This document shows positions 134 to 13,459 of a stretch of 37,098 bases of DNA, piece by piece (position 1 is the stretch's first letter; every line of letters begins with the position of its first letter). Source of the DNA: an uncultured Oscillibacter sp. (GTDB taxonomy: Bacteria; Bacillota; Clostridia; Oscillospirales; Oscillospiraceae); the NCBI RefSeq assembly GCF_947654275.1, contig NZ_CANTJS010000028.1, positions 1 through 37,098 on the forward strand. The letters are read 5' to 3'. A model generated the notes under the pieces. It was not told the origin of the DNA, did not search any database, and saw nothing but the letters and a program-made list of their open reading frames with translations. The position numbers and the translations under genes were made by a program.

Positions 134-3085
134 TCAGCCCAGCAGCCAGGCGTACCGGGTCAGCACCGTGAGGATGAACACCTCAATCCCGGCGGGCAGG
201 TCGTTCCCGGCGTTCAGATCGGCCTCGAAGACCTTCCCCTCCAGCCGGACCAGAACCCTGCTCCCGCCCAGGGGCAGGAAGCCCTGATTCTGTTCGCTCT
301 CGTCGAAGCCCTCCCGGGTCCTGAACAGGGTGAACTTATCCCGGTAGGGGGCGGAATCATAGGGGCAGAAAATGGCGCAGTTGCCGCACTCGTTGCACAT
401 CCGGTCCACATGGAGAATCTCGTGCCGTCCGTCGGGCAGCTGAATCACCACATTGGCCCGGTTGGGGCACACGTCGGCGCAGACCTGGCACACCACATTG
501 CAGCTCAGGCACCGGTCTCCCTCGCACCTGGCGGACTCGCAGAGAATGCCCTTCCTGGCAATGGCCTCTCCCCGAGAGGTTTTGGCCTTTTCGGGGATGG
601 CGAACCTGTGGGCCTCTCCAATCACGGCATTGGCGAACCACTGGGCGTCCGCGATGCCCTCCACCACCGTGGCGGGGCCCCGCATGGCGTCGCCGCCTGC
701 ATAGACGCCTTCCACATTGGTCCTGAAGTCCGGCAGGCCCCTGGCGTCCACGTCGATTCCATTGGCGGTGAATATCTCGCTGTCCACCTTCTCACCCACG
801 GCGGAGACGACGGTGTCGCAGTCAATCTCCACAAACTCGCCGGTGGCCTCCGGCTTCCGGCGGCCCTTCTCGTCGGGCTCGCCCAGCCTCATTTTCTCAC
901 AGCGGAGCTTCCCGTCCCTCTGCTCCACCGGGGCCACCAGCTCCAGGAAGCCCACGCCGTCGGCAATGGCCAGCTCCAATTCCTCCGCGTCGGCGGGCAT
1001 ATACTTCCTGGTGCGGCGGTACACCAGCGTGGAGGACCTGGCCCCGGCCCGAAGGGCGGCCCGGGCGGCGTCCATGGCGGTGTTGCCTCCGCCCACCACG
1101 GCCACATTGCCCAGAGGCACGTCCTTTCCGGCCTTCATATCCTTCAGCCAGCCGATGACGGGAACCACATTGCCGGGGATGTCCAGCCTTCCGGCCTTCC
1201 ACGCGCCCACGGCAAAGAAAATGTGGGTGTATCCCTGGGCCTTCAGCTCGGCCACAGAGGGGGCGGGGGTGTTCAGACGGATGTCCGCCCCCATTTTGGC
1301 GATGAGGGCCGCGTCCTTGTCGATGGCTTCGTCAGAGATACGGAAGTCGGGGATGACCTGCCGGACTACGCCGCCCAGCCGGTCCGCCTTTTCAAACAGG
1401 GTGACGGGAATGCCCGCCCGGCCCACGAAGTAAGCCGCGGCCATACCGGCGGGGCCTCCGCCGATGACAGCCACCTTCCGTCCGTCGGTGACAGGTACAG
1501 GGGCGTTCAGCTTGGAGAAATATTCATCATAGCCCCGCTCTGCCGCCACCAGCTTCGTGGCCCGAATCTGAACGGAATCCTCATAGAAATTCCGCGTGCA
1601 CTTGGTCTGGCAGTTGTGGGCGCAGATAGTGCCGGTGATGAAGGGCAGGGGGTTCTTCTCGCAGATCAGCCGCAGGGCGGAGGCATACTCCCCCTTCCGG
1701 CAGAGCTCGATATACTCAGGAATGTCCTGGCCGATGGGGCAGCCGCCCTTGCAGGGGGCTGTGAAGCAGTCCAGCAGGGGCACCTTCTCATAGAGCTTCC
1801 GCCGGGGCAGGGGCTTCACGGCCTTGACGTGGTATTTGTCGCTCCTGGCCGCCTGGGCCAGGGCCTCGATGCCCTCCACATCCACGCCGGTGAAGGGCCG
1901 GAAGGCCAGCCGGTCCAGCTTGCCGCCAATCTGGACGAAGCGCTGATAGCCGCCGGGCTTCAGCTCCGTCGTCGCCATGGTGATGGGCCAGATGCCCAGG
2001 GAAAACAGCCTGTCGATGTTCAGCGCGTCGGCGCCGCCGGCGTAGCTGATGCGCATTTTCCCGCCGAATTCCCGGGAAATGCGGGCGGCCATGGCGGTGG
2101 TCAGGGGGAAGAGGGACTTGCCCGCCATGTACATCTCCCCGCTGGGCAGCTCCCCGGCCTTCACGTCCACGGGGAAGGTGTTGGACAGCTTCAGTCCGAA
2201 CTCCACGCCGTTCCTGTCCGCCAGGGCCTGGAGGCGGCGGAACATGGGCACGGCGTCCTCATACTGAAGGTCCTCCTTGAAATGGTGGTCGTCAAAGGCG
2301 ATGTAGTCATAGCCCATGCCGTCCAGAATGGACCGGGCGGTCTCGTAGCCCAGAAGCGTGGGATTGCACTTGACGAAGGTGTGGAGGCGCTTCGTCTCAA
2401 TGAGATAGCCGGCAATCCGCTCGATCTCGTCCGGCGGGCAGCCGTGGAGGGTGGAGAGGGTGACGCTGCCGGAGATATGGGGGGTTATGCCGTCGATGAA
2501 GGCCGTTTCGGCGGGGAAGAGCTCCTTCAGCACCCGGATGCACTCCTGGAAAATGGGGGTCCGGGAGGCGTCCGTCATGCCGTTCAGGAAGCCGTCGATT
2601 TTCTCCCCCTGGATGCCCGCCAGGTCATAGCCCACGGACATGTTGAAGACAAAGGCGTCGGGGTCTCCCAGACCGTAGACCCTGGCCATGATTTTGCAGG
2701 CGCACCAGGCCTTTACATACTCCTCGAAGGCCTGCTGTACGTAAAGCTCCGTGGACCACTCGCAGTTATAGCATTCGTCCTCCGCCAGAATGCAGGGACG
2801 GCTGATGCAGGCCGCCAGCTCCGCACCGTCCATCTTCTGGACGGTTTTCAGCTCGAAGAACCGGGCCCCGGCGAAATAGCCGGCGATGATGTTCTGGGCC
2901 AGCTGGGTATTGGGTCCGGCGGCGGGCCCGAAGGGCGTTTCAATCTTTTCACCGAAAATCGGCAGGGTTTTCACTCCGGCACGGTAGGGCTTGTGCACGC
3001 CAAAGACCGTGCCCTCCGTCTGATATTCGGCGGTCACCCAGGTCATCAATTCCCGGAAGGGAATGGGGGTCATCAGTTCAGACAT
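134..3085 (-). CDS. ygfK: YgfK-type putative selenate reductase / electron-transfer flavoprotein subunit
   Basis: This 983-residue protein has the YgfK layout. Residues 1 to about 420 form a dihydroorotate-dehydrogenase-like barrel. Near residue 438 a Cys-rich GltD-type domain begins (CxxxxCxxxC, then CAHNCQTKC). An FAD motif (GGGPAG) lies near 540, a pyridine-nucleotide motif (GGGNTAMD) near 665, and two Cys clusters at 848-875 and 897-909 suit [4Fe-4S] centres (CNECGNCAIFCP). Such a protein would pass electrons between NAD(P)H and a partner oxidoreductase in the cytoplasm. The E. coli homologue is named a selenate reductase subunit, but the family travels with ssnA and xdhD in purine-degradation clusters, and that role is more likely here. 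It is slightly shorter than the roughly 1030-residue E. coli protein. AGGAGG lies 9 bases before the ATG. It is last in an operon after ssnA. Confidence 0.92.
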   Translation of the reverse strand: MSELMTPIPFRELMTWVTAEYQTEGTVFGVHKPYRAGVKTLPIFGEKIETPFGPAAGPNTQLAQNIIAGYFAGARFFELKTVQKMDGAELAACISRPCILAEDECYNCEWSTELYVQQAFEEYVKAWCACKIMARVYGLGDPDAFVFNMSVGYDLAGIQGEKIDGFLNGMTDASRTPIFQECIRVLKELFPAETAFIDGITPHISGSVTLSTLHGCPPDEIERIAGYLIETKRLHTFVKCNPTLLGYETARSILDGMGYDYIAFDDHHFKEDLQYEDAVPMFRRLQALADRNGVEFGLKLSNTFPVDVKAGELPSGEMYMAGKSLFPLTTAMAARISREFGGKMRISYAGGADALNIDRLFSLGIWPITMATTELKPGGYQRFVQIGGKLDRLAFRPFTGVDVEGIEALAQAARSDKYHVKAVKPLPRRKLYEKVPLLDCFTAPCKGGCPIGQDIPEYIELCRKGEYASALRLICEKNPLPFITGTICAHNCQTKCTRNFYEDSVQIRATKLVAAERGYDEYFSKLNAPVPVTDGRKVAVIGGGPAGMAAAYFVGRAGIPVTLFEKADRLGGVVRQVIPDFRISDEAIDKDAALIAKMGADIRLNTPAPSVAELKAQGYTHIFFAVGAWKAGRLDIPGNVVPVIGWLKDMKAGKDVPLGNVAVVGGGNTAMDAARAALRAGARSSTLVYRRTRKYMPADAEELELAIADGVGFLELVAPVEQRDGKLRCEKMRLGEPDEKGRRKPEATGEFVEIDCDTVVSAVGEKVDSEIFTANGIDVDARGLPDFRTNVEGVYAGGDAMRGPATVVEGIADAQWFANAVIGEAHRFAIPEKAKTSRGEAIARKGILCESARCEGDRCLSCNVVCQVCADVCPNRANVVIQLPDGRHEILHVDRMCNECGNCAIFCPYDSAPYRDKFTLFRTREGFDESEQNQGFLPLGGSRVLVRLEGKVFEADLNAGNDLPAGIEVFILTVLTRYAWLLG

Positions 3086-3107
3086 TATTTGTATCCTCCT
3101 GTTTGTA

Positions 3108-3132
3108 AATTAGGAATGAGGAATGAGGAATT
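3108..3132. repeat. AATTAGGAATGAGG-type short repeat
   Basis: AATTAGGAATGAGGAATGAGG and the following AATT lie between the 106-residue gene and ygfK. The same wording recurs at 7259-7291 and, inverted, at 7375-7413. All three sit in spacers of the purine island, which suggests a dispersed repeat family and not coding or promoter sequence. Confidence 0.6.
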
Positions 3133-3180
3133 GACCAAGGTATTCGGTCAGACTGCCTCCTGAAAATTTTTGTGAGCACA

Positions 3181-3501
3181 TCATTCCTTATGAGAAGATT
3201 CTTCCAGCTGGGAAAGGCGGTCCGTGGCCTCTAAAAATTCCCGGAATTTCACCCAGCAGCCGTGATGGACGGCGGCGTGGCCGCCAGGGTCCTTTCTGCC
3301 CACCTTCTCAAAGTGGACCGCCAGCAGCTCCCGGGCCCGCTCCATAGAGGACTCGTCCCGGAAAATCGCCTCGAAGGGCATCCCGATGTCGTGATAATAG
3401 GCGAAGAGCACATTGCTGGCCATGACGCCGGGACGGGCGTACTCGTAATTCGCCTCCAGATACCGGATAAACTCCGTCCGCAGGCCCTTGATCTCCAGCA
3501 T
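3181..3501 (-). CDS. Unknown 106-residue protein between ssnA and ygfK
   Basis: I do not recognise this family. The protein has 106 residues, is probably mostly helical, and has no signal peptide or membrane segment. It is rich in aromatic and charged residues and carries a central HHGCWVKF stretch with one Cys and two adjacent His, the only obvious candidates for metal or cofactor contact. The ATG lies 1 bp after the ssnA stop codon, preceded by AGGGAA, so it is almost certainly co-transcribed and translationally linked with ssnA and followed 95 bp later by ygfK. That placement suggests an accessory role in the SsnA/YgfK pathway, but no function can be assigned from sequence. It is unlikely to be spurious because spacing, ribosome site and composition fit the operon. 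Confidence 0.8.
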   Translation of the reverse strand: MLEIKGLRTEFIRYLEANYEYARPGVMASNVLFAYYHDIGMPFEAIFRDESSMERARELLAVHFEKVGRKDPGGHAAVHHGCWVKFREFLEATDRLSQLEESSHKE

Positions 3502-3502
3502 C

Positions 3503-4846
3503 TCAGTATTCCCTGCGGTTCAGCCGGCCCCAGAGCTTTCTGGAGACCTCCAGAATCTCCGCGTTGACGGCCTCCTCGTCGATTTCCGTCAGCTGGCGGT
3601 CCTTCATCAGGACCTTTCCGTTAATCATGGTGGTCTGGCACTGGCGGCCCGTCATGCCGAAGAGCATGTGTCCGTCAATATTGGCGTCGGAGAAGGGGGT
3701 GAAGGGCTTATAGTCCATGACGATGACGTCCGCCGCCGCCCCGGCCCTCAGGACTCCCAGCTCCGGGAAGCCGCACCGGGCGGCCATTTTGGCGTTGTTT
3801 TTGAACAGCATGTCCGTCACCTCACACCAGCCCACGCCGGGGAGGCAGACGTTGTGCCGCTGGGAGCACAGGGCCACCTTGATGCTCTCCAGCATGTCGT
3901 TGGTATAGGCGTCGGTGCCCAGTCCGATGAGAATGCCCTGTTTGTAAAGCTGGAGCACCGGGGAAATGCCCACGGCGTTGCCCATATTGCTCTCCGGATT
4001 GTTCACGCACATGGTGTCCGTGGCTTTGATAAGTTCCATTTCGGCGGTGCTGACATGGATGCAGTGGCCCAGTATGGTTTTGGGGCCCAGAATGCCGTGG
4101 TCCTGGAGCCGCTGAACGGGACGGCGTCCGTAATTCTGGAGAGAGTCGTACACATCGTTCATGCCCTCGGAGACATGGATGTGGTATCCCGCCCGGCCGG
4201 CGTTGGCGGCGGCCATCCGGTCAAAGGTCTTGTCGGAGATGGTAAACAGGGCGTGTCCGCCGAACATGGCTTTCAGCATTTCGGAGGGGTTGGCCTCGCA
4301 ATAGTCGATGAAATCCTTGTTTTCCCGGACGGACTGGAGGGCCTTCTCCTCGCCGTCCCGGTCGCTGACCTCGTAGCACAGACAGGCCCGCATCCCCATG
4401 TCCCGGGTGACATTGGCAATCTCCATCAGAGAGCCGGGAATCTGGCAGAAGGAGGCGTGATGGTCAAAAATGGTGGTGACGCCCTGCTTGATGGAGTCAA
4501 TCACCAGGGCCCGGGCGCTGGCCCGGGTGGCCGCCAGGTCCAGATTCCGGTCGATGTACCACCACTGACCGTCCAGCACCTCATAGAAATTGGTGGGATT
4601 GTACCCGTCAATGGACAGGCCCCGGGCCAAGGCGGAATAGATGTGGGTGTGGGCGTTGATGAGGCCGGGCATAATGACGCCGCCTCTGGCGTCCACAAAT
4701 TCCGCCTCCGGGTACCGCTCCGCCAGCTCCGCCGTGGTCCCCACGGCCACGATTTTCCCGCCGTCGGTGACGACGCCGCCGTCCGGCAGGTAGCCCGTGC
4801 CGTCAGGGTCTCTGGTAATCAGTTTTCCGTTTGCCAGTCGAATCAT
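3503..4846 (-). CDS. ssnA: SsnA-type amidohydrolase/deaminase
   Basis: The 447-residue protein matches the SsnA branch of the amidohydrolase superfamily. Near the N-terminus the metal-binding HTH motif occurs in the context PGLINAHTHIYSAL. Further His and Asp residues of the barrel follow (DHHASF, GHCIHVS, GLGTDAYTND). In E. coli and gut Firmicutes SsnA is encoded with xdhD and ygfK; its substrate is unproven, and purine-derived heterocycles are the likely class. The start chosen is the ATG at 4846, preceded by AAGGGAG. A longer open frame runs upstream to 4996, but it covers a structured leader with no protein-like composition. It is the first gene of an operon with its own promoter and a probable regulatory leader. 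Confidence 0.92.
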   Translation of the reverse strand: MIRLANGKLITRDPDGTGYLPDGGVVTDGGKIVAVGTTAELAERYPEAEFVDARGGVIMPGLINAHTHIYSALARGLSIDGYNPTNFYEVLDGQWWYIDRNLDLAATRASARALVIDSIKQGVTTIFDHHASFCQIPGSLMEIANVTRDMGMRACLCYEVSDRDGEEKALQSVRENKDFIDYCEANPSEMLKAMFGGHALFTISDKTFDRMAAANAGRAGYHIHVSEGMNDVYDSLQNYGRRPVQRLQDHGILGPKTILGHCIHVSTAEMELIKATDTMCVNNPESNMGNAVGISPVLQLYKQGILIGLGTDAYTNDMLESIKVALCSQRHNVCLPGVGWCEVTDMLFKNNAKMAARCGFPELGVLRAGAAADVIVMDYKPFTPFSDANIDGHMLFGMTGRQCQTTMINGKVLMKDRQLTEIDEEAVNAEILEVSRKLWGRLNRREY

Positions 4847-5016
4847 AAAAAAATCTCCCTTCTCCGTCCTCGCGCCGGACCTCGGCGTCCCGCGCATAAA
4901 AGAAAGGCGCCTCAAACCCGCCCTTGGGTTTGAAACACCTATCCCAGGGAAAGACAGGTGCCCCGGCCCGTGCGCGAAGCACTTCGTTGCAGCCATCTTC
5001 TCCGTATAGCAGTTAT
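4847..5016 (-). promoter_or_regulatory. Candidate riboswitch/attenuator leader of the ssnA operon
   Basis: The leader of about 170 nt holds three hairpins. An early one (4971-4991) has UGC/GCA and CGAA/UUCG pairing. Hairpin A (4936-4960) pairs CACCUGUC with GAUAGGUG. Hairpin B (4912-4933) pairs UCAAACCC with GGGUUUGA. Hairpin B can be lengthened by pairing AGGUG (4940-4936) with CGCCU (4909-4905), giving a long stem followed directly by UUCUUUU, which looks like an intrinsic terminator. Those AGGUG bases are also the 3' arm of hairpin A, so the two states exclude each other. I could not match the 5' part to a known purine, guanidine or molybdenum-cofactor aptamer by eye. Ligand control is therefore an inference. 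Confidence 0.55.
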
Positions 5017-5022
5017 GGACTT

Positions 5023-5051
5023 ATTATACCGGACGGGCCCTCGAAAAACAA
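5023..5051 (-). promoter_or_regulatory. Promoter of the ssnA operon
   Basis: On the minus strand TTGTTT (-35, 5051-5046) is separated by exactly 17 bp from a consensus TATAAT (-10, 5028-5023). The predicted start of transcription is near 5016, giving the long leader described separately. Confidence 0.8.
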
Positions 5052-5153
5052 GGCCGGCGGCGGAAAACTTTCCTGTCATTTTTTGTGAAAATCTCCGAAA
5101 ACCACTGGGGTAATACCTCGCCTTTTCGTCGGACCCGTGAGAGGTCAACCCTT

Positions 5154-5537
5154 TCAAGAGGTCTGCTGGCCGCCCCGTTCCCGGACAAAGGCGCAGATGC
5201 GGCCGAAGGTCTCCTCGCTGAGGTCATGTTCCACCTTGCACGCGTCCGCCGCCGCCTGGTCGCAGCCCACCCCCAGCAGCTCAAAAAACCGGGTGATGGT
5301 CTTGTGCCGGTCATAGATGCGGCTGGCAATTTCCATGCCGCTGTCATTCAGGGTAATCCGTCCATCGGAGGCCATATTGATATAACCGCTTTCCCGCAGT
5401 TTTTTCATGGCGATACTGACGCTGGGCTTGGAAAAACCCAGCTTGTTCACAATGTCAATGGACCGGACCTGACCGCTCTCCTCCTGTAATATCAAAATGG
5501 ACTCCAGATAGTCCTCTGCAGATTCATGAATGACCAT
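5154..5537 (-). CDS. DtxR/MntR-family metal-dependent transcriptional regulator
   Basis: This is a 127-residue winged-helix regulator of the DtxR/MntR family, without the C-terminal SH3/FeoA domain, so close in size to MntR (about 142). The N-terminal metal motif E-D-Y-L-E-S-I keeps Asp9 and Glu12. The recognition helix region reads GFSKPSVSIAMKKL. His occurs in YDRHKTI, and the last ligand block is ACKVEHDLS. In B. subtilis MntR the first ligand of that block is Glu99; here it is Cys, as in the iron regulator DtxR (ACRWEH). This hints at Fe(II)-type sensing, which is an inference. The start at 5537 is preceded by AAGGAGG. It lies between the ssnA and xdh operons, whose enzymes need Fe-S clusters, so local control is possible. 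Confidence 0.88.
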   Translation of the reverse strand: MVIHESAEDYLESILILQEESGQVRSIDIVNKLGFSKPSVSIAMKKLRESGYINMASDGRITLNDSGMEIASRIYDRHKTITRFFELLGVGCDQAAADACKVEHDLSEETFGRICAFVRERGGQQTS

Positions 5538-5571
5538 ACCGGGGGCCTCCTTCCGCAGGCATCCACTGTTT

Positions 5572-5612
5572 ATAAATTGATTTATTATAGCAGAACCCGC
5601 CGGAAAGCGCAA
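5572..5612 (-). promoter_or_regulatory. Promoter of the DtxR-like gene with an overlapping inverted repeat
   Basis: TTGCGC (5612-5607) and TATAAT (5589-5584) are spaced by 17 bp on the minus strand. A perfect inverted repeat, ATAAAT-TG-ATTTAT (5572-5585), overlaps the -10 and the start region. That is where an autorepressor would bind, so it is a candidate operator for the gene's own product. Confidence 0.65.
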
Positions 5613-5632
5613 GGTTTTTTGTAAAATCTGTA

Positions 5633-5795
5633 AGAACCTGTATTCATAGCCGTGGGATGCCGGATGGGCGAGGATTTTTCCTGTCAGACAAGGAGCTTTT
5701 CCACAGCAATCCTGACGGATTGCAAGGGAAATCGACGCAGTATGATGGGAAAAAGACCGGCCAGACGGCGTGCAGCGGTTGTGAATACAGGTTCT
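5633..5795. mobile_element. MITE-like element, copy 1
   Basis: A 163-bp non-coding segment is bounded by perfect 14-bp terminal inverted repeats, AGAACCTGTATTCA and TGAATACAGGTTCT. Read on the minus strand, its interior resembles the element at 33190-33403. Shared blocks are ACGCCGTCT, TCTTTTTCC, CTGCGT, and an AATCCG-CAGGATT stretch. No clear target duplication is seen and no transposase gene is present, so it would be a non-autonomous element. It sits just upstream of the DtxR-like gene's promoter. Confidence 0.7.
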
Positions 5796-5822
5796 CAATT
5801 CCCCAGCGGCGGGCCGGGAGGA

Positions 5823-5860
5823 CGCCGCCCGGTCCATCCGGTCGGACGGGCCGGGCGGCG
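5823..5860 (-). terminator. Hairpin after xdhC
   Basis: CGCCGCCCGG and CCGGGCGGCG form a 10-bp GC-only stem that can extend inward. It lies 6 bp after the xdhC stop. There is no T-run, so it may stall polymerase or protect the 3' end and not terminate strongly. Confidence 0.5.
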
Positions 5861-5865
5861 CGGGT

Positions 5866-6363
5866 TCAGCTCTCCTTCCCCAGGCGGCGGAGCATGGTCT
5901 TTTTCACCGCCCGGAGGATGTTCTCATAGCCGGTGCAGCGGCACAGGTGGCCGGAGAGGAGCTTTCGGAGCTCCTCGTCTGTATACTCCCTGCCGCTCTC
6001 CAGAATCTCCACAGCCGTCAGGATAAAGCCCGGCGTGCAGAAGCCGCACTGAATGGCTGCCTCATCCACAAAGGCCTGCTGAATGTCGCTGAGCTCGCCA
6101 TTGGGCCCCAGGAGGCCCTCCAGGGTGCGGACCTGCTTGCCCTCGGCCCAGACCGCCAGGTAGATGCAGGAGTTGAAGGCCTCCCCGTCAATGAGAACGT
6201 TGCAGGCGCCGCACTCCCCCACCTCGCAGCCCTTTTTCACCGAGGTCATCCGGAACTCGTTCCGCAGCATGTCCGTCAGGCTGGCCCGGACGTCCACCGT
6301 CCGCTCCACGTCCTTTCCGTTGAGACTGAAACGGACCGTCTGATATTGGATGGTATGCATCAC
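5866..6363 (-). CDS. xdhC: Xanthine dehydrogenase iron-sulfur subunit
   Basis: The 165-residue protein is a two-domain [2Fe-2S] subunit of the xanthine oxidase family. The plant-type ferredoxin domain has the Cys ligands in CEVGECGACNV and the following NSC. The helical domain carries QCGFCTPG and CRCTGY, which hold the second cluster next to the molybdopterin. It should relay electrons from the molybdenum centre to the FAD subunit. The length equals that of E. coli XdhC. Its ATG overlaps the stop of xdhB by four bases (ATGA), so the two are translationally coupled. It is the last gene of the xdhA-xdhB-xdhC operon. Confidence 0.94.
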   Translation of the reverse strand: MMHTIQYQTVRFSLNGKDVERTVDVRASLTDMLRNEFRMTSVKKGCEVGECGACNVLIDGEAFNSCIYLAVWAEGKQVRTLEGLLGPNGELSDIQQAFVDEAAIQCGFCTPGFILTAVEILESGREYTDEELRKLLSGHLCRCTGYENILRAVKKTMLRRLGKES

Positions 6364-7241
6364 AGGTCACCTCCCGCCAGTTTCACAGACTCGATGAAGG
6401 CCCTCTTGGCGCTCTCCACGGCGATGTGGAGGCGGAAATCCTTTGCCGCCCGCCAGGAATCGCGGGGATGGATGTCCTCCCTGACGGCCTGAGCGAATTC
6501 CTCCGCCAGCTCCAGGCTTACAGGCCGGCCCGCGGCCAGCGCCTCGGCATGGGCCGCCCGCAGGGGCACCGGCCCCGCCACGCCGAAGGCCGCCCGGGCC
6601 CGCTCCACGGTTTTCCGGTCGGCGGAGAGGCGGACGTTGACGGAGGTCCCCAGCGTTGCGATGTCCATGGCGTTTCGCATGGCGTACTTGATATAGTGTC
6701 CAAAGCAGTTTTCCCAGCTCTCTCTGGGGATGAGAAGGGCGGTCTGAAGCTCCCCTTCCCGGATATCCACCTTGCCGGCCCGGATATAGAACTCCTGAAT
6801 GGGCTGGCGGCGGACGCCGTTGGGGCCGGTGAGCTCCACAATGGCGTCCCAGGCGAAGAGGGTGGAGGCGGAGTCGGCGGAGGTGACGCCGTTGCAGGTG
6901 TTTCCCCCGATGGTGCCGATGTTCCGAATCTGGGGCCCGCCCACCTGGTCCACGGCCTCCCCCAGGACGTTGATATACTTCTGAATCAGGGGGTCCCGGG
7001 TGATATGGGAAAAGCTGGTCAGGGAGCCGATCCGAAGCGTTCCGTCCTCATCCTGAGAGACGCCCCGGATTTCATCCAGCGTCTGGATGGAGATGAGCTC
7101 CGCCCCGGCCCGTTTGCCCTCCCGCATCTGCACCAGCACGTCGGAGCCCCCTGCGATGATCTGGGCCTCGGGATGGGCAAGGCGCAGGGCCACGGCGTCT
7201 TTGACGCTCTTCGCCTGATACAGGGCTTTTATATCGTACAT
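6360..7241 (-). CDS. xdhB: Xanthine dehydrogenase FAD-binding subunit
   Basis: The protein has 293 residues, as in E. coli XdhB (292). FAD contacts are visible in the pyrophosphate-binding IIAGGSDVLVQM near residue 30-40 and in the family signature GTIGGNTCNG near residue 110. The C-terminal CO-dehydrogenase flavoprotein domain follows. It would take electrons from the XdhC iron-sulfur centres and pass them to NAD+ or another acceptor. It stands 166 bp after xdhA, a gap filled by a short repeat, and overlaps xdhC by four bases. The fused hydroxylase at 10,910 has no FAD partner of its own in this window, so this subunit is one candidate for sharing. Confidence 0.94.
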   Translation of the reverse strand: MYDIKALYQAKSVKDAVALRLAHPEAQIIAGGSDVLVQMREGKRAGAELISIQTLDEIRGVSQDEDGTLRIGSLTSFSHITRDPLIQKYINVLGEAVDQVGGPQIRNIGTIGGNTCNGVTSADSASTLFAWDAIVELTGPNGVRRQPIQEFYIRAGKVDIREGELQTALLIPRESWENCFGHYIKYAMRNAMDIATLGTSVNVRLSADRKTVERARAAFGVAGPVPLRAAHAEALAAGRPVSLELAEEFAQAVREDIHPRDSWRAAKDFRLHIAVESAKRAFIESVKLAGGDL

Positions 7242-7258
7242 AACATACTCCTTTTTCT

Positions 7259-7413
7259 AATTAGGAATGAGGGATGAGGAATTAGGAATGATCCGGCTGG
7301 AACCGCTGGAAAACAGAAATCTTCTGCGGGAAAGCGTGTGGAAGCCGGAATTGGAACGCAGCGGTAAGACTGTCAATTCCTAACTCCTAACTCCTAATTC
7401 CTAACTCCTAATT
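7259..7413. repeat. Inverted AATTAGGAAT-type repeat pair between xdhA and xdhB
   Basis: The left arm (7259-7291) is built from AATTAGGAATGAGG-like units. The right arm (7375-7413) is the inverted counterpart with CCTAACTCCTAATT-like units. About 83 bp lie between. The xdhA stop codon (TAG at 7410-7408) is made by the first bases of the right arm. The XdhA C-terminus still looks complete, so the element abuts but does not truncate it. The pattern suggests a small inserted repeat element in the operon spacer. Confidence 0.6.
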
Positions 7414-9702
7414 TTCAATCAGTCCCGCTTCCTTGAACTTCCGATACAGCACATGCGGCGTGATGGGGCAGCAGTCGACGGCCACGCCGGTGGCGTTCAG
7501 AATGGCGTTGCGGATGGCCGGCGCGCCGGAGCAGGCCGGAGGCTCGCCCAGGGCCTTGGTGCCGTAAGGCGACGTGGGCTCCGGATTCTCCACGAACTCC
7601 GCCTGAAGGGCGGGATGGTCCATGAAGGTGGACAGCTTATAGTCCAGCAGATTGTTGTTCAGAGGCCTGCCGGTTTTCTCGTCAAACTTCAGTTCCTCGG
7701 ACAGGCCGTAGCCGATGGCCATGGACATGCCGCCGTGAACCTGAGCCTCCGCCAGAGCGGGGTTGATGAGGGTGCCGCAGTCGTGGACGTTCACCATGTT
7801 CAGCAGCTTCACCTTGCACATGGGAATATCCACCTCCACCTCCGCAAAGGAGCATCCGAAGGAATAGGCGTTGCTCTTGATCTGGGCGGTGGTCTCAGCG
7901 GTGATGTGCTGGCTGTGCTCCAGGGAATAGAGACTTTCCGTGGCCAGGTCTCCCAGGGATTTCAGCACCCGGCCGTCGCTCTTCCGGATGATCTGGCCGT
8001 CTGCCAGGTCCAGATTGCTCACAGGCATCCGGGTCTGTTCGTGGGCGACGGTCAGAATGCGCTCCCGAAGGGCCTGAGCCGTCTGCATGATGGAAAAGCC
8101 GCCGATGTAGGTCTGCCGGGAAGCATAGGCACCGGTGCCGAAGGGGGTCACGTCGGTGTCCTGGGTGGAAACCACATGGACGTCTTTCAGAGGAATGCCC
8201 ACGGCGTCCGCCACCATTTGGGAATAGGCGGTGTCGCAGCCCTGGCCGATCTCCGTCTCGCCGGTCTGGAACTGGAGAGAGCCGTCCTGATTCAGCACCA
8301 TCCGGCAGGAGGAGGACTCCAGAGAGATGGGCCACACGGCGGTATTGTACCAGAACACCGCCACCCCCACGCCCCGGCGGACGGGGCCGGTCTGCTGCTG
8401 GTATTCCTGATACTTCCGGCGGTAGTCAATGGCCGCCATGCCCTTCTCCATGCACTGGCTGAAGGTGTCGCTGTACAGCTCGTTTTTGGAAAAGCCGTCC
8501 ACATAGCCCACGGGCATCAGATTCTTCCGGCGGAACTCCAGAGGTGTGATGCCGACGGCCTTGCAGATATCGTCAATGTGGCTCTCCCCGGCAAACATGG
8601 CCTGGGGGATGCCGTAGCCCCGCATCGCGCCGGCAGCGGGCCGGTTGGTGTACACCGTCCAGCAGTCGCACTCCAGATTTTCACAGGGATAGAGCTGAGG
8701 GAAGGCGTTCATGCCCTTGGCATTGACGCCGTGGCCGTGGGAGGCGTAGGCCCCCTGATTGGAAAAGGATTCGAATTTCCGGGCGGCAAGGGTGCCGTCT
8801 GGGCGGACGTAAGAAATGATATGGGTGCGAATGGCGTGGCGGACCCGGTTGGAGACAAAGGTCTCCTCCCGCGTACACTCCAGCTTTACCAGCCGCCCTC
8901 CCACCTGCGCGGAGCACCAGGCGCACAGAGGTTCATACAGGGCGTCCTGCTTGTTGCCGAACCCGCCGCCGATGTAGGGCTTGATGATGCGGACCTTGCC
9001 CCAGGGGATGCCCAGCGCCTGCCCCACCACCCGGCGCACAATGTGGGGAATCTGGGTGGAGCTGACCACCACCATCCGGCCCGCCTCCTCATAGGCGAAG
9101 CAGCCGTGATTTTCAATGTGGCAGTGCTGGACCGTGGGGGTGTCATACCAGCCTTCGACCCTGATCAGGCCGGGCTCCTGCCGGGCGGTCTCGTAGTCCC
9201 CCCGGCGGATGTCGGAGTGGGCCAGAATGTTATGGGGATACTTCTCATGAAGCTGGGGAGCGCCCTCCTCCATGGCCTTCTGGACGTCCAGCTCAAAAGG
9301 CAGTTCCTCATACTCCACCTTCAGGGCCCGGACCGCCTGGGCCGCCGCCACCTCGTCCTCGGCAATCACCGCGGCTACTTCGTCGCCGTAGTAGCGGACA
9401 TGCCGGTTCAGCAGCAGCCGGTCCGCCACATCCTGATGGTGGGGGTCCGTCGACCAGGGGTGGCCTGCCGTGGGAAAGGGGATGTCCGGCACGTCGAAGC
9501 AGGTCAGGACCTTCACCACGCCGGGGATCTGTTCCGCCGCCGTCTTGTCGATGGACGTCACGAAGCCATGGGCGATGGTGGAGTGGCAGATTTTCGCCAC
9601 CAGCGCCTCCCGACCACAGAGATCGTCCGTATATTTGGCCCGGCCGGTGGCCTTTTCATAGGCGTCCACCCGGGTCACGCTTTTGCCGACGCTTTTGCTC
9701 AT
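7408..9702 (-). CDS. xdhA: Xanthine dehydrogenase molybdenum-binding subunit
   Basis: The 764-residue protein is the molybdopterin-binding large subunit and resembles E. coli XdhA throughout. Motifs in order: VDAYEKATGRAKYTDD at the N-terminus, GGGFGNKQD near 246, AMRGYG (substrate-positioning Arg) near 358, EIGQGCDT (cofactor Gln) near 485, and LGEPP with the catalytic Glu near 720. It hydroxylates purines such as hypoxanthine or xanthine at the molybdenum centre. The C-terminal AGLIEN corresponds to the E. coli end, so it is full length. The start is preceded by AGGAGGG five bases before ATG. It is first in the xdhA-xdhB-xdhC operon and divergent from the mocA-like gene. A TTGACA box (9776-9771) lies upstream on its strand, but the -10 is unclear. 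Confidence 0.95.
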   Translation of the reverse strand: MSKSVGKSVTRVDAYEKATGRAKYTDDLCGREALVAKICHSTIAHGFVTSIDKTAAEQIPGVVKVLTCFDVPDIPFPTAGHPWSTDPHHQDVADRLLLNRHVRYYGDEVAAVIAEDEVAAAQAVRALKVEYEELPFELDVQKAMEEGAPQLHEKYPHNILAHSDIRRGDYETARQEPGLIRVEGWYDTPTVQHCHIENHGCFAYEEAGRMVVVSSTQIPHIVRRVVGQALGIPWGKVRIIKPYIGGGFGNKQDALYEPLCAWCSAQVGGRLVKLECTREETFVSNRVRHAIRTHIISYVRPDGTLAARKFESFSNQGAYASHGHGVNAKGMNAFPQLYPCENLECDCWTVYTNRPAAGAMRGYGIPQAMFAGESHIDDICKAVGITPLEFRRKNLMPVGYVDGFSKNELYSDTFSQCMEKGMAAIDYRRKYQEYQQQTGPVRRGVGVAVFWYNTAVWPISLESSSCRMVLNQDGSLQFQTGETEIGQGCDTAYSQMVADAVGIPLKDVHVVSTQDTDVTPFGTGAYASRQTYIGGFSIMQTAQALRERILTVAHEQTRMPVSNLDLADGQIIRKSDGRVLKSLGDLATESLYSLEHSQHITAETTAQIKSNAYSFGCSFAEVEVDIPMCKVKLLNMVNVHDCGTLINPALAEAQVHGGMSMAIGYGLSEELKFDEKTGRPLNNNLLDYKLSTFMDHPALQAEFVENPEPTSPYGTKALGEPPACSGAPAIRNAILNATGVAVDCCPITPHVLYRKFKEAGLIEN

Positions 9703-9761
9703 GGGAACCCTCCTTTTTCAGACACAACACAGGGGATAGAAGATCAATATGGGAAGAAAAT

Positions 9762-9790
9762 TTGCGTTTTTGTCAAAAGCAGGATATACT
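9762..9790 (+). promoter_or_regulatory. Promoter of the mocA-like gene
   Basis: TTGCGT (9762-9767) and TATACT (9785-9790) are spaced by 17 bp on the plus strand. Transcription would start near 9797, leaving a leader of about 93 nt. That leader can fold: AAGCGG pairs with CCGCTT, and inner stems form from CGGA-TAT-TCCG or TTCCG-CCG-CGGAA. The promoter lies in the 187-bp divergent spacer shared with xdhA. Confidence 0.65.
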
Positions 9791-9889
9791 AAGCGGGAGA
9801 TACGGATATTCCGCCGCGGAACCGCTTGATGACGGAATCTCTTCTGTCTCCTCGTTTCTGTCTTAACAAAATAACAATTGGGGGATGCA

Positions 9890-10498
9890 ATGGATACATT
9901 GAAATTGGGCTGTGTGGTTATGGCGGCGGGGAATGCCGCCCGTTTTGGGGACAACAAGCTGGCGGCGGAGCTCCAGGGCCGGAGTCTGATTCATCGCGCC
10001 TTGGAGGCAGTGCCCTCCAAGATGTTCAACACCGTGGCCGTGGTGACTCAATACCCGGAAATCATGGAGCTGGCCGCAGAATTCCAGTTCACCGCCGTCT
10101 GTAATGAGCACCCGGACTGGGGCATCAGCCACACCATTAAACTGGGCCTTGACGCCCTGGGGGACTGCAGCGGGGCCCTCTTCCTGGTCAGCGACCAACC
10201 CCTTTTGAAGCGGGAGACCGTGGCGGCGCTGGTGCGGCTGTGGGAGTCTCAGCCGGAGAAAATCGCCGCATTGGCGCACGACGGCGTCCGGGGCAATCCC
10301 TGCGTCTTTCCCGCCCGGCTCTTTCCGGAGCTGAGGGAGTTGGAGGAGGACCGGGGCGGAAATACCGTCATCCGACGGCACGAGGCGAATTTAATCCTTC
10401 TGGAAGCGGCGGAAGAGGAGCTGACCGACGTGGATACGCCGAGGGCTATGGAAGAGCTGAGCGCAGAACGTGAACAGAGAAGATTCAGGGGGCGGTAA
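9890..10498 (+). CDS. mocA: Molybdenum cofactor cytidylyltransferase (MocA/YgfJ-like)
   Basis: The 202-residue protein belongs to the MobA-like NTP transferase family. The nucleotide-binding loop VVMAAGNAARFGDNKL is at the N-terminus, and the metal-binding FLVSDQPLLK lies at mid-length. The GNPCVFP and GGNTVIRRH segments are typical of MocA and YgfJ. It should add CMP to molybdopterin to give the cytosine dinucleotide form used by the xanthine-oxidase-family enzymes encoded next to it. E. coli ygfJ occupies the same kind of cluster. The ATG at 9890 is chosen because GGGGG lies five bases upstream; an in-frame TTG at 9878 is less likely. It is divergent from xdhA, and its 3' end overlaps the convergent unknown gene by 14 bp. 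Confidence 0.9.
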   Translation: MDTLKLGCVVMAAGNAARFGDNKLAAELQGRSLIHRALEAVPSKMFNTVAVVTQYPEIMELAAEFQFTAVCNEHPDWGISHTIKLGLDALGDCSGALFLVSDQPLLKRETVAALVRLWESQPEKIAALAHDGVRGNPCVFPARLFPELRELEEDRGGNTVIRRHEANLILLEAAEEELTDVDTPRAMEELSAEREQRRFRGR

Positions 10499-10913
10499 CG
10501 TCCTCTGTTTCTTTTTTGTCCCCAAAGTCCGCGATTGCTTCGTCCACCTCCGGATTGTTCAGGGTTTTTGCGTAGTTTATCAGCCACGCAAGCGCCGCCG
10601 GAAAAGCCGCCCGCAGCAGTTCTGCCGCCCTCCGAAACTCCCACTCCTGCCATTCCGGTTCCTGAAACAGACACGACGGGACCACCTTGGGGAGATGTGC
10701 GGCCACCCAGTCCGGCGGCAAACGCAGCATCTCCCGCCGGGCCGCCTCGATGTTGGCGGCGTTCTGGCTGAGGCAGCCGGTTTCCAGAATCTCCCGCAAA
10801 ACCGCCTCCGCCGCATCTTCCGGAAAGGTCTCGATTTCGGAAAGCCGTTTAGACGCCCCCAGACAGAAACGGTCCATGCGCTCCCACAGCCGCCGTTCGT
10901 AATCGCTGGTCAT
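10485..10913 (-). CDS. Unknown 142-residue protein coupled to the XdhD-like hydroxylase
   Basis: I do not recognise this family. The 142-residue protein is soluble, probably all helical, and rich in Trp, Glu, Arg and Ala. It has three Cys residues (FCLGA, TGCLSQN, PSCLF), no spacing typical of Fe-S or zinc sites, and no signal peptide. Its ATG overlaps the stop of the 849-residue hydroxylase by four bases (ATGA) and it has only a weak ribosome site, so translation probably depends on re-initiation after that gene. This tight coupling argues for a role with the hydroxylase, such as assembly chaperone or cofactor insertion. Gene neighbourhood is the only basis for that. Its 3' end runs 14 bp into the convergent mocA gene. 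Confidence 0.78.
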   Translation of the reverse strand: MTSDYERRLWERMDRFCLGASKRLSEIETFPEDAAEAVLREILETGCLSQNAANIEAARREMLRLPPDWVAAHLPKVVPSCLFQEPEWQEWEFRRAAELLRAAFPAALAWLINYAKTLNNPEVDEAIADFGDKKETEDVTAP

Positions 10914-13459
10914 TTCCGGGTGTAGGGCGTATTGTCCAAAGGCAGGGCCGTGCGGAACCGTCCGTCGTAGCGGAAATAGGCGTCGGCAATAGCGGGGGCA
11001 GTGGGAATGGAAGTGATCTCCCCAATACCGATGGCTCCGCAGGCCACATCCAGCCCCTCCTTTTCCACGATAATGGGCACGATCTCCGGGATCTGATTGG
11101 CCCGAAACAGGCCCAGGGTGCCGAATTTTGCCGTGGGCTTGCAGTCTGTCAGAGGATAGCGTTCTGTCAGGGCGTAGCCCATGGACATGACCACGCCGCC
11201 CTCGATCTGTCCCTCCACGGACAGGGGATTCACCGCCCTGCCTACGTCATGGGCGGCTATGATCTGTTTCAGCCTGCCCTCGTCGTCCAGAACGCACACC
11301 TGCGTGGCGTAGCCATAGGCGATGTGGCTGACGGGGTTGGGCACGTCCGCCCCCAGGGGGTCCGTTTTGCCCAGGTACTCGCCATAGAATTCCTTCCCGT
11401 TCAGGCTCTCCAGCCCCGCGGTCTCCAGGGCGGAGCGCAGGTCCTGACAGGCCCGGCGGCAGGCCTCGCCGGTAAACAGGGTCTGACGGGAGCCGGAGGT
11501 GGTGCCGGAATCCGGGGCGGAATAGGTATTGGACCGCTCGTAGACAATCTGTTCCGGTCCCAGACCCGTCTGGGTGCAGACCATCTGGGTCAGCACGGTG
11601 CCCAGACCCTGGCCGATGCAAGAGGCCCCGGCGAAAATGTGGACCTTTCCGTCCTCCACTGCCAGACGCACCCGGCCCGTGTCCGGAATGCCCACGCCTA
11701 CGCCGGCGTTCTTCATGGCACAGGCGATGCCGGCATAGGGCGCGGCGTCATAATAGGGCTTCACCGCCTCCAGTGTTTCCGCCAGACCGGTGGACGCATC
11801 CACGATCTGGCCGTTGGGCAGCTCCTGCCCGGGGCGGATGGCGTTGCGCCAGCGAATTTCCCAGGGGCTGATGCCCACAATGTCCGCCATCTGGTTCAAA
11901 AGACTCTCGATGCAGAAACAGGTTTGGGTGACGCCAAAGCCCCGGAAGGCCCCGGCGGGGGGATTGTTGGTGTAGTAGGCCCAGCCGTCAATCTCAAAGT
12001 TCTGGTAATTATAGGGCCCGGCGGCGTGGGTGCAGGCCCGCTCCAACACCGGCCCGCCCAGGGAGGCATAGGCCCCGGTGTCGGCAATGACCTCGGCGGC
12101 CACCCCCTGGATGATGCCGTTTTCGTCGCAGCCCAGAGAGAATTCCATCTCCATGGGGTGACGCTTGGGATGGATCAGGAGGCTCTCGGCCCGGGTCAGC
12201 TTCACCTTCACCGGTCGCTTGGTCAGGTAGGCGATAAGGGCGGCGTGATGCTGGACCGTCACGTCCTCCTTGCCGCCGAAGCCGCCGCCCACCAGACAGT
12301 TGCGGACTTTCACCAGTTCCGGCGGCAGACCCAGCATCTTCATGGTCTCGTGCTGGGTGTCATAAGCGCCCTGGTCGGTGGAGAGGATCATGACCCCCTC
12401 CCCGTCAGGGTAGGCCACGGCGCACTCCGGTTCCAGAAAGGCGTGTTCCGTCCAGGGGGTGGAAAACCGCTGGGTCAGAACGTGCTTGCTCTTGGCAATG
12501 GCCTCCGCCGGGTTGCCCCGCTGGATGTGCTTGTGGGCCAGCAGATTTCCCTCCTGGTGTACCAGGGGTGCGTCGGGCAGCATGGCTTCCCGGGGGCTGC
12601 GGACCATGGGCAGCTCCTCATAGTCCACCCGTACCAGAGACTTGGCCTGAGCCAGGATTTCCGGCGTTTCAGCAGCCACCAGACAGATGGCGTCCCCCAG
12701 ATAGTGGGTGATGTCCCCCACGGCGATCATGGTGTCCCAGTCCTGTTTCAGATGGCCCACCTTGTTGCTGCCGGGCACGTCGGCGGCGGTGAACACCCCC
12801 ACCACGCCGGGCAGGGCCTCGGCCTCTTCCGTGTGAATGGCCAGCACCCGGGCCCTGGGATATTGGGAACGGACGGCGCTGCCGTAGATCATGCCGTCCA
12901 GATAGATGTCGTCGGGATAGACGCCAGTCCCCGTCACCTTTTCCTCCACGTCCACCCGGGGGACCCGTGCACCAAGAGACCAGTCTCTGGGGCTCTCCGG
13001 CACGGTCCCGGTCCGGAAGCACTCCGCCGCCAGCAAAATGGCGTCAATGATCTTGACGTATCCGGTGCAGCGGCAGATGTTGTTCCGAATGGCAAAGGCC
13101 GCCTCCTCCCGGCTGGGATTCGGATTCATGTCCAGAAGGCCCTTGGCGCACATCACCATGCCGGGAATGCAGAATCCGCACTGGACCGCCCCGGCATGGC
13201 CGAAGGCATATGTATAGACCTGTTTCTCGAACTCCGTCAGGCCCTCCACCGTGACGACGCTCTTTCCCTCCAGCTTGTCCGTCTGAGGGATACAGGCCCG
13301 GGCGGCCTTTCCATCAATCAGCACCGTACAGGTGCCGCAGGCCCCCTCGCTGCATCCGTCCTTTACGGAGGTCAGGCCCAGGACGTCCCGCAGGAAGCGG
13401 ATGAGCTTCTGGTTTTTCTCCACGGTCACAGGTTTGCCGTTTACGGTAAATGCTGCCAT
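10910..13459 (-). CDS. xdhD: Fused [2Fe-2S]/molybdopterin hydroxylase (XdhD / selenium-dependent molybdenum hydroxylase type)
   Basis: At 849 residues this protein fuses two functions. Residues 1-150 form the [2Fe-2S] unit, with Cys ligands in CSEGACGTC, QCGFCIPG and CRCTGY. Residues from about 165 form the molybdopterin unit (VPRVDVEEKVTGTGVYPDD, GGGFGGKED near 390, AFRGFG near 500, GQGLGT near 615, and GIGEI with the presumed catalytic Glu near 810). This architecture and length fit the XdhD/Se-dependent xanthine dehydrogenase group, which normally co-occurs with ssnA and ygfK as here. The selenium in that group is a labile cofactor and cannot be read from sequence; selD, yqeB and yqeC are not in this window. 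No FAD subunit of the YgfM type is adjacent. Substrate is probably a purine. A good promoter and a palindromic operator precede it. Confidence 0.88.
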   Translation of the reverse strand: MAAFTVNGKPVTVEKNQKLIRFLRDVLGLTSVKDGCSEGACGTCTVLIDGKAARACIPQTDKLEGKSVVTVEGLTEFEKQVYTYAFGHAGAVQCGFCIPGMVMCAKGLLDMNPNPSREEAAFAIRNNICRCTGYVKIIDAILLAAECFRTGTVPESPRDWSLGARVPRVDVEEKVTGTGVYPDDIYLDGMIYGSAVRSQYPRARVLAIHTEEAEALPGVVGVFTAADVPGSNKVGHLKQDWDTMIAVGDITHYLGDAICLVAAETPEILAQAKSLVRVDYEELPMVRSPREAMLPDAPLVHQEGNLLAHKHIQRGNPAEAIAKSKHVLTQRFSTPWTEHAFLEPECAVAYPDGEGVMILSTDQGAYDTQHETMKMLGLPPELVKVRNCLVGGGFGGKEDVTVQHHAALIAYLTKRPVKVKLTRAESLLIHPKRHPMEMEFSLGCDENGIIQGVAAEVIADTGAYASLGGPVLERACTHAAGPYNYQNFEIDGWAYYTNNPPAGAFRGFGVTQTCFCIESLLNQMADIVGISPWEIRWRNAIRPGQELPNGQIVDASTGLAETLEAVKPYYDAAPYAGIACAMKNAGVGVGIPDTGRVRLAVEDGKVHIFAGASCIGQGLGTVLTQMVCTQTGLGPEQIVYERSNTYSAPDSGTTSGSRQTLFTGEACRRACQDLRSALETAGLESLNGKEFYGEYLGKTDPLGADVPNPVSHIAYGYATQVCVLDDEGRLKQIIAAHDVGRAVNPLSVEGQIEGGVVMSMGYALTERYPLTDCKPTAKFGTLGLFRANQIPEIVPIIVEKEGLDVACGAIGIGEITSIPTAPAIADAYFRYDGRFRTALPLDNTPYTRK

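Follow-up and report, generated by a model that had tools for sequence, protein, structure and literature searches.

What controls the transcription of ssnA and ygfK in this uncultured Oscillibacter, and which signal is sensed? The window analysed here (the whole stretch of DNA, 37,098 nt) carries both genes on its minus strand, behind a leader of about 170 nt that runs from a probable transcription start near 5016 to the ssnA ATG at 4846. An earlier note on this DNA had proposed a ligand-controlled transcription attenuator before ssnA-ygfK, and the comparison of leaders described below favors that proposal through covarying hairpins and mutually exclusive helices. Our reading, to which we assign a probability of about 0.6, is that the leader contains a small aptamer, the ssnA RNA, which would be coupled to a terminator as an ON switch for a metabolite of purine breakdown, with yanthine or urate as the first choice. 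The genes and the promoter are the following.

4846-3503, minus strand: ssnA, aminohydrolase SsnA (NF005540 at 607 bits and TIGR03314 at 542 bits, both over cut-off).
3085-134, minus strand: ygfK, adjoining ssnA (TIGR03315 at 1278 bits, over cut-off).
5051-5023, minus strand: promoter read from the sequence, with TTGTTT at 5051-5046, a 17-nt spacer and TATAAT at 5028-5023.

The -10 hexamer is perfect. An automatic consensus scan of positions 4840-5160, requiring at least 4/6 per hexamer, returned no promoter because the -35 hexamer matches TTGACA at only three of six positions. The leader (5020-4847) folds more stably than shuffled sequences (z -3.3, 0/200 as good).

The only Rfam match in the window at gathering cut-offs is RF03031, "ssnA RNA", which covers all 48 model positions and is present as a single copy in the source genome (E up to 0.001). 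In a cmscan of 4700-5200 with E up to 10, in which seven families were listed, the models of the purine, xanthine (NMT1) and Moco riboswitches had no match. The family was reportedly described in 2017 by Weinberg et al. in Nucleic Acids Research, and we know of no ligand for it. A search of the open-licence literature, a scope outside which most subscription papers fall, found no paper on ssnA RNA, and a term search for "ssnA" had no hit in the available extracts of two reviews of orphan riboswitches (PMC7266159, PMC10043782). Papers that name ssnA, as judged from extracts, concern an unrelated streptococcal nuclease, contain a similar string only, or use ssNA for single-stranded nucleic acids; none of these extracts is about the RNA. 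The class itself is already known from Rfam. As far as these sources show, what is new here is the logic of the switch, the further partner genes and the short list of ligands; some of this may stand in the original description of the family. The elements of the leader are listed below.

5002-4955, minus strand: conserved core of the ssnA RNA (RF03031) and putative aptamer (45.6 bits, gathering cut-off 37.3, E 1.7e-9).
4995-4991 with 4968-4964, minus strand: aptamer helix P1, 5 bp (pairing across 146 leaders, and covariation).
4982-4979 with 4973-4970, minus strand: aptamer helix P2, 4 bp (paired in 100% of cells in 61 aligned sequences).
5000-4993 with 4957-4950, minus strand: competing helix P0, 8 bp (shared bases; outer pairs covary in relatives).
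4960-4953 with 4943-4936, minus strand: antiterminator, the earlier note's hairpin A, 8 bp (own versus swapped partners in relatives).
4940-4926 with 4919-4905, then TTCTTTT at 4904-4898, minus strand: terminator, the earlier note's hairpin B, 15 bp (terminator scan).

The internal loop of the aptamer reads GCAACGAA, and the antiterminator pairs CACCTGTC (4960-4953) with GATAGGTG (4943-4936). Much of what the earlier note had read by eye agrees with these coordinates, namely the TTGTTT-17-TATAAT promoter with a leader of about 170 nt, hairpin B as a terminator, and the exclusion of hairpin A by hairpin B through AGGTG. It had found no known class for the leader, which the Rfam search corrects, and it had overlooked both the RF03031 match (4955-5002) and P0, a helix in competition with both hairpin A and the aptamer stem. 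Hairpin B is one of two sites listed by a terminator scan of both strands of 4840-5160, where 0.5 would be expected from shuffles; the second, weaker site lies upstream of the ssnA promoter on the plus strand (5106-5120).

Three bases of P0 in the window (4995-4993) also belong to P1 and five (4957-4953) to the antiterminator, which in turn has five (4940-4936, AGGTG) in common with the terminator, so that only one of hairpins A and B can form in full. In the absence of ligand, the foot of the aptamer and the antiterminator strand would be joined in P0; with the antiterminator thereby lost, the terminator would form and RNA polymerase would stop before ssnA. With ligand bound, P1 and P2 would be held and P0 blocked; the antiterminator would then keep AGGTG, and ssnA, probably together with ygfK, would be transcribed. 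The lowest-energy folds of a growing window transcript pass through P0 (3' ends at 4950 and 4944), the antiterminator (4936 to 4915) and finally P0 with the terminator (4905 and 4898). For the full-length leader we calculated -34.0 kcal/mol with P0, P2 and the terminator, -31.7 with P1, P2 and the terminator, and -17.8 with P1, P2 and the antiterminator. Whether or not the aptamer is formed, the terminator state thus has much the lowest energy, and it follows that a switch of this kind must act during transcription and that its ON state must either be kinetic or draw its stability from the ligand.

Related leaders were compared in order to judge these helices. From 149 core matches, 146 leaders were retained, including that of the window: L119 and L180 lie too close to the end of their stretch, and the pattern match L138 (record title Nealsonbacteria) sits within a long ORF and was dropped as a chance match. 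The four inner pairs of P1 are standard pairs in 146/146 leaders and the fifth pair in 114/146. One inner P1 pair varies, being A-U in 102 leaders, G-U in 33, G-C in 10 and U-A in one. In 61 distinct aligned sequences, 96.7% of 548 P1/P2 cells are paired (94.2% when shuffled). Cells in which both sides have changed number 17, compared with 5.3 in shuffles (0/500 as high), and they fall on four pairs, compared with 2.3 (13/500 as high); these shuffle tests, like the swap tests below, ignore kinship. The closing pair of P2 is C-G in 52, U-G in five and U-A in four of the 61 sequences. The earlier note had suggested aligning ssnA leaders and took a lack of conserved hairpins as evidence against a switch; the alignment contains the opposite, hairpins that are conserved and that covary. 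An alternative fold of the core, pairing CGAA with TTCG, was discarded, as its covariation was no greater than in shuffles.

The layout of the window, in which P0, antiterminator and terminator each exclude the next, was found in 82 of the 146 leaders. P0 here joins the flank 5' of the aptamer hairpin to the strand that follows P1. Because the inner P0 pairs are fixed by the motif used for anchoring, only the outer pairs constitute a test. Among 83 P0 leaders, one of them a chance motif match that was later dropped, pair 5-48 forms in 81 (UA 72, AU 5, GU 3, UG 1) and pair 4-49 in only 31, and positions 3 and 2 are paired in 75 and 68, respectively. Across 41 distinct strand pairs, the outer pairs beat 5000/5000 swaps; for the inner pairs, 507/5000 swaps were as good. 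P0 gave no signal in the 63 other distinct leaders (176/200 swaps as good). The antiterminator is more stable with its own partner than with swapped partners (-8.8 versus -6.9 kcal/mol, 0/500 as good, 70 distinct pairs), and in 80/82 leaders it has 2 nt or more in common with the terminator. Its overlap with P0, present in 82/82, is largely built into the measurement, since the P0 motif served to locate its 5' strand.

Downstream of the aptamer we distinguish three layouts, and in the two others the terminator itself takes up the 3' or the 5' half of the aptamer. Evidence for the 3'-half layout comes from 38 short-spacer leaders, defined as those outside the P0 group with a T-run nearby. In 17 of these, at most 1/100 shuffles gave as good a stem from the aptamer 3' half to the T-run, a few such stems starting only at the last bases of the aptamer; in six of the 38, at least half of the shuffles were as good in the hairpin-energy test. 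A cruder count, in which terminators reaching into the aptamer were tallied, gave 26/38, against a shuffled mean of 18.8 and a maximum of 24 in 40 runs, and discriminates poorly. A duplex version of the test was passed by 8/65 leaders without P0, and in ten selected 3'-half leaders the lowest-energy fold lacks P1. In the 5'-half layout, a terminator arm pairs with the aptamer 5' half in six leaders (0/200 shuffles each): both copies in L054, both in L078 (a Gemmiger record), and the copy before a dihydroorotate-dehydrogenase-like (DHOD-like) gene in two Intestinimonas genomes. L054 (1341 and 1510) and L078 (687 and 854; reverse strand offsets) each have two ssnA RNAs in tandem upstream of a single ssnA, at a spacing of 167 to 169 nt, every copy with its own terminator arm pairing with the aptamer 5' half. 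By the cruder count, 38 of the 146 leaders could be assigned to neither of the P0 and 3'-half layouts and were labelled B; in many of them (Flavonifractor and others) an antiterminator seems, by eye, to abut P1.

Coupling of the aptamer to an expression platform through mutually exclusive helices was accordingly found in the window and, among relatives, by the antiterminator, 3'-half and 5'-half tests. Wherever the connection can be read, the folded aptamer opposes the terminator, which argues for an ON switch; the three layouts are most simply understood as alike in this respect, transcription continuing when the aptamer is folded. In a quick tree of 120 SsnA proteins, 70 of 71 leaders with the layout of the window fall into one clade of 77. 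The 3'-half layout is scattered inside and outside that clade, and well-supported branches force at least 10 changes, as counted with imperfect layout labels taken from the cruder terminator count. L112 and L150, for example, were labelled A by the nearer T-run yet resemble the Flavonifractor layout, and the second copy of L054 was labelled A, where the test of the 5' half places it in the 5'-half layout. It thus seems that the platform was exchanged repeatedly and the hairpin retained. The ssnA and RNA of L072, a record titled Candidatus Cacconaster and given as Bacteroidota, come with an SsnA that groups among Oscillospiraceae; this record is perhaps mislabelled or a mixed bin.

In the family of the source genome, 49/200 genomes have an RF03031 match (45 over cut-off). 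Matches were found in 18/394 genomes of the order (16 over cut-off), 16 of these 18 being from the same family; in 6/391 genomes of the class, only the window's own being over cut-off; in 4/398 genomes of the phylum, with two over cut-off, one of them the window's own; and in 0/14 control genomes. The filters used in these wide searches lose weak matches. Weak matches of 23 to 29 bits in L049 (same family) and in L057, L059-L063, L065 and L066 (outside it) were judged false, the core being absent by eye, and L046, L047, L048 and L056, also below cut-off, were kept, the core being present. A pattern scan of named genomes gave at least 119 stretches, and among the 80 titles listed many are Oscillospiraceae or genera of this family. 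Full SsnA proteins over cut-off are encoded by 59 of the 200 family genomes, among them 46 of the 49 with the RNA; of the other three, two (G185 and G187) carry an ssnA truncated at the edge of a contig, and the RNA match in G186 is false. Thirteen of the 59 have no RF03031 match. When their upstream regions (14 stretches) were inspected by eye and with a loose pattern, one divergent copy was found and none was evident in the other 13 stretches. This divergent ssnA RNA (L228, ~561-603, minus strand), missed by the Rfam search, keeps P1 with several two-sided changes and has a T-run directly after the hairpin. Among 50 genomes searched whole, three have more than one copy (three in an Intestinimonas, two in another Intestinimonas, and two in tandem in a Gemmiger).

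After removal of duplicates, the gene downstream of the core is ssnA in 139 of 149 matches, at a distance of 56 to 306 nt counted from where the core starts. Of the remaining ten, five reach the end of the retrieved sequence within 280 nt (in three of them the start of ssnA is still seen), one is the chance match L138, and four have other partners. In L084/L217 the RNA precedes a HyuA-type D-hydantoinase (TIGR02033, over cut-off), an enzyme of the urate pathway. In L108 it precedes a DHOD-like FAD/NAD subunit adjoining a gltA-type subunit, families that were scanned on the matching pair in L216, where the RNA, the third copy of the L084 genome, scores 36.8 bits, just below cut-off. In L174 and L154 it precedes an ORF that points away from ssnA, ygfK and a gene resembling NCS2 xanthine permeases; this permease and the selenium-dependent xanthine dehydrogenase nearby were scanned in the L154 genome (L218) only. 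The ORF in L174 is a DUF6198 protein by family scan; the one in L154 (L218, ~1490-1780, minus strand) starts with nearly the same residues and then differs. One Intestinimonas genome has, besides the RNA of ssnA, a separate ssnA RNA for hyuA (L217, 12668-14047) and for the DHOD-like/gltA-type pair (L216, 6256-8489), and the L216 contig also carries ygeY and ygeW. Class membership, the helices with bases in common and these partner genes are established by comparing sequences.

In the window itself, ygfK is probably transcribed along with ssnA, across a gap of 417 nt (3086-3502) that contains a 106-aa ORF (3181-3501) without an NCBIfam or Pfam match; ssnA and ygfK are much closer in several relatives, as judged from match positions. 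Directly upstream of the ssnA promoter lies a gene for a DtxR/MntR-like regulator with about 100 residues before its DNA-binding domain (5154-5837, minus strand). Beyond it, xdhCBA and a separate selenium-dependent xanthine dehydrogenase (5866-13459, minus strand) adjoin the ssnA operon and have no copy of RF03031.

Yanthine (2,8-dioxopurine) we take to be the first intermediate of reductive urate breakdown. According to extracts of a recent study, yanthine derives from urate, and YgfK and SsnA with NAD(P)H convert it to ureidomethylhydantoin, the compound that HyuA opens (PMC12507026). Extracts of another report that urate induces a set of genes in distant gut bacteria, ssnA and ygfK among them (PMC12990295). 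Together, this action on yanthine and the induction by urate make yanthine or urate the leading candidate ligand, so far as these extracts go. We infer small-molecule binding, the ON direction and the ligand. A narrower version, that the ssnA RNA is specifically a yanthine ON riboswitch that gathers ssnA-ygfK, hyuA, the electron-transfer pair and a membrane protein into one urate regulon in some gut bacteria, is offered as a tentative suggestion. The regulation of urate genes across gut bacteria was described as poorly understood in 2025 (extracts of PMC12507026). With the pathway published in that year, a few compounds now suffice to put the question of the ligand to the test. Urate matters in gout, and an RNA that senses urate or yanthine, if our reading is true, would be usable as a reporter.

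Other explanations differ in what holds the hairpin and in what the signal is. An RNA-binding antiterminator protein of the LicT/SacY or ANTAR kind could stabilize the hairpin and block the terminator, and in its size (about 30 nt) and its overlap with a terminator the hairpin is reminiscent of the RAT sites to which LicT-type proteins bind. We examined 35 of the 49 RNA-bearing family genomes for the respective domains. PF03123, the RNA-binding domain of LicT-type proteins, is absent from 28/35, including the source genome (G000, 93% complete), which makes a LicT-type protein unlikely. ANTAR proteins are encoded in 24/35, with one in the source genome; their absence from the other 11 argues against a general role, and the RNA feature of ANTAR antitermination is a pair of hexaloop hairpins. 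A protein of another family might take the place of the ligand, though overall we regard control by a protein as rather unlikely. Peptide-based attenuation, in which the position of a ribosome would select the hairpin, is suggested by an ATG at 4996 that lies inside the aptamer after GGAGA, with a frame open into ssnA (ORF 3503-4996, minus strand). However, an ATG in the interval from 20 nt upstream of the core to its GGG is present in only 64/146 leaders, changes in P1 and P2 preserve base pairs, and the core measures 26 nt in 126 leaders and 27 nt in 20, so that no frame is kept; we consider a leader peptide very nearly out of the question.

The sign of the switch could also be the reverse. 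A ligand might stabilize P0 together with a shortened P1, which could stack on each other, and since P0 excludes the antiterminator in the window, the operon would be turned OFF. Yet P0, without signal outside the layout of the window, is not part of the shared aptamer, and its formation would disrupt P1 pairs found intact in 146/146 leaders. Moreover, where the terminator takes up the aptamer directly, a stabilized aptamer must hinder termination, and the induction of ssnA and ygfK by urate in other gut bacteria (extracts of PMC12990295) may point the same way. An OFF switch thus appears improbable to us. As for the signal, the earlier note had hinted at molybdopterin and selenium, and the neighboring purine enzymes do belong to molybdenum- and selenium-dependent families, with a MocA-like ORF (by eye) also located downstream of hyuA in L084. 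But xdhABC and the selenium-dependent xanthine dehydrogenase beside ssnA are without a copy of RF03031, which speaks against such a signal, and the extra copies precede hyuA, the DHOD-like/gltA-type pair and DUF6198, not molybdenum or selenium enzymes. The hint was therefore not borne out, and sensing of molybdenum cofactor or selenium status in place of a purine seems highly improbable.

An ON switch for a purine-breakdown metabolite, as we propose from sequence comparison, can be set beside known systems. It would work like the RAT sites of LicT and SacY, which also are short hairpins overlapping a terminator and allow readthrough when folded; RAT-type systems, however, need a PF03123 protein, and none was found in the source genome and 27 others of the 35 RNA-bearing genomes. 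With the xanthine riboswitch (NMT1, xanthine-I), the ssnA RNA shares a small hairpin aptamer, a conserved internal bulge and an association with purine-breakdown genes. According to extracts of PMC7373994, NMT1 binds xanthine and urate and is an OFF switch that likely acts on translation, whereas the ssnA RNA is read here as a transcriptional ON switch. The closest likeness is to RF03031 itself, with which the leader has in common the core, the P1/P2 hairpin, the place before ssnA and a score over the gathering cut-off. The Rfam model comprises 48 positions and the pairs of P1 and P2 only; to these, the present analysis adds P0, the antiterminator and the terminator and, as further partners, hyuA, the DHOD-like/gltA-type pair and DUF6198.
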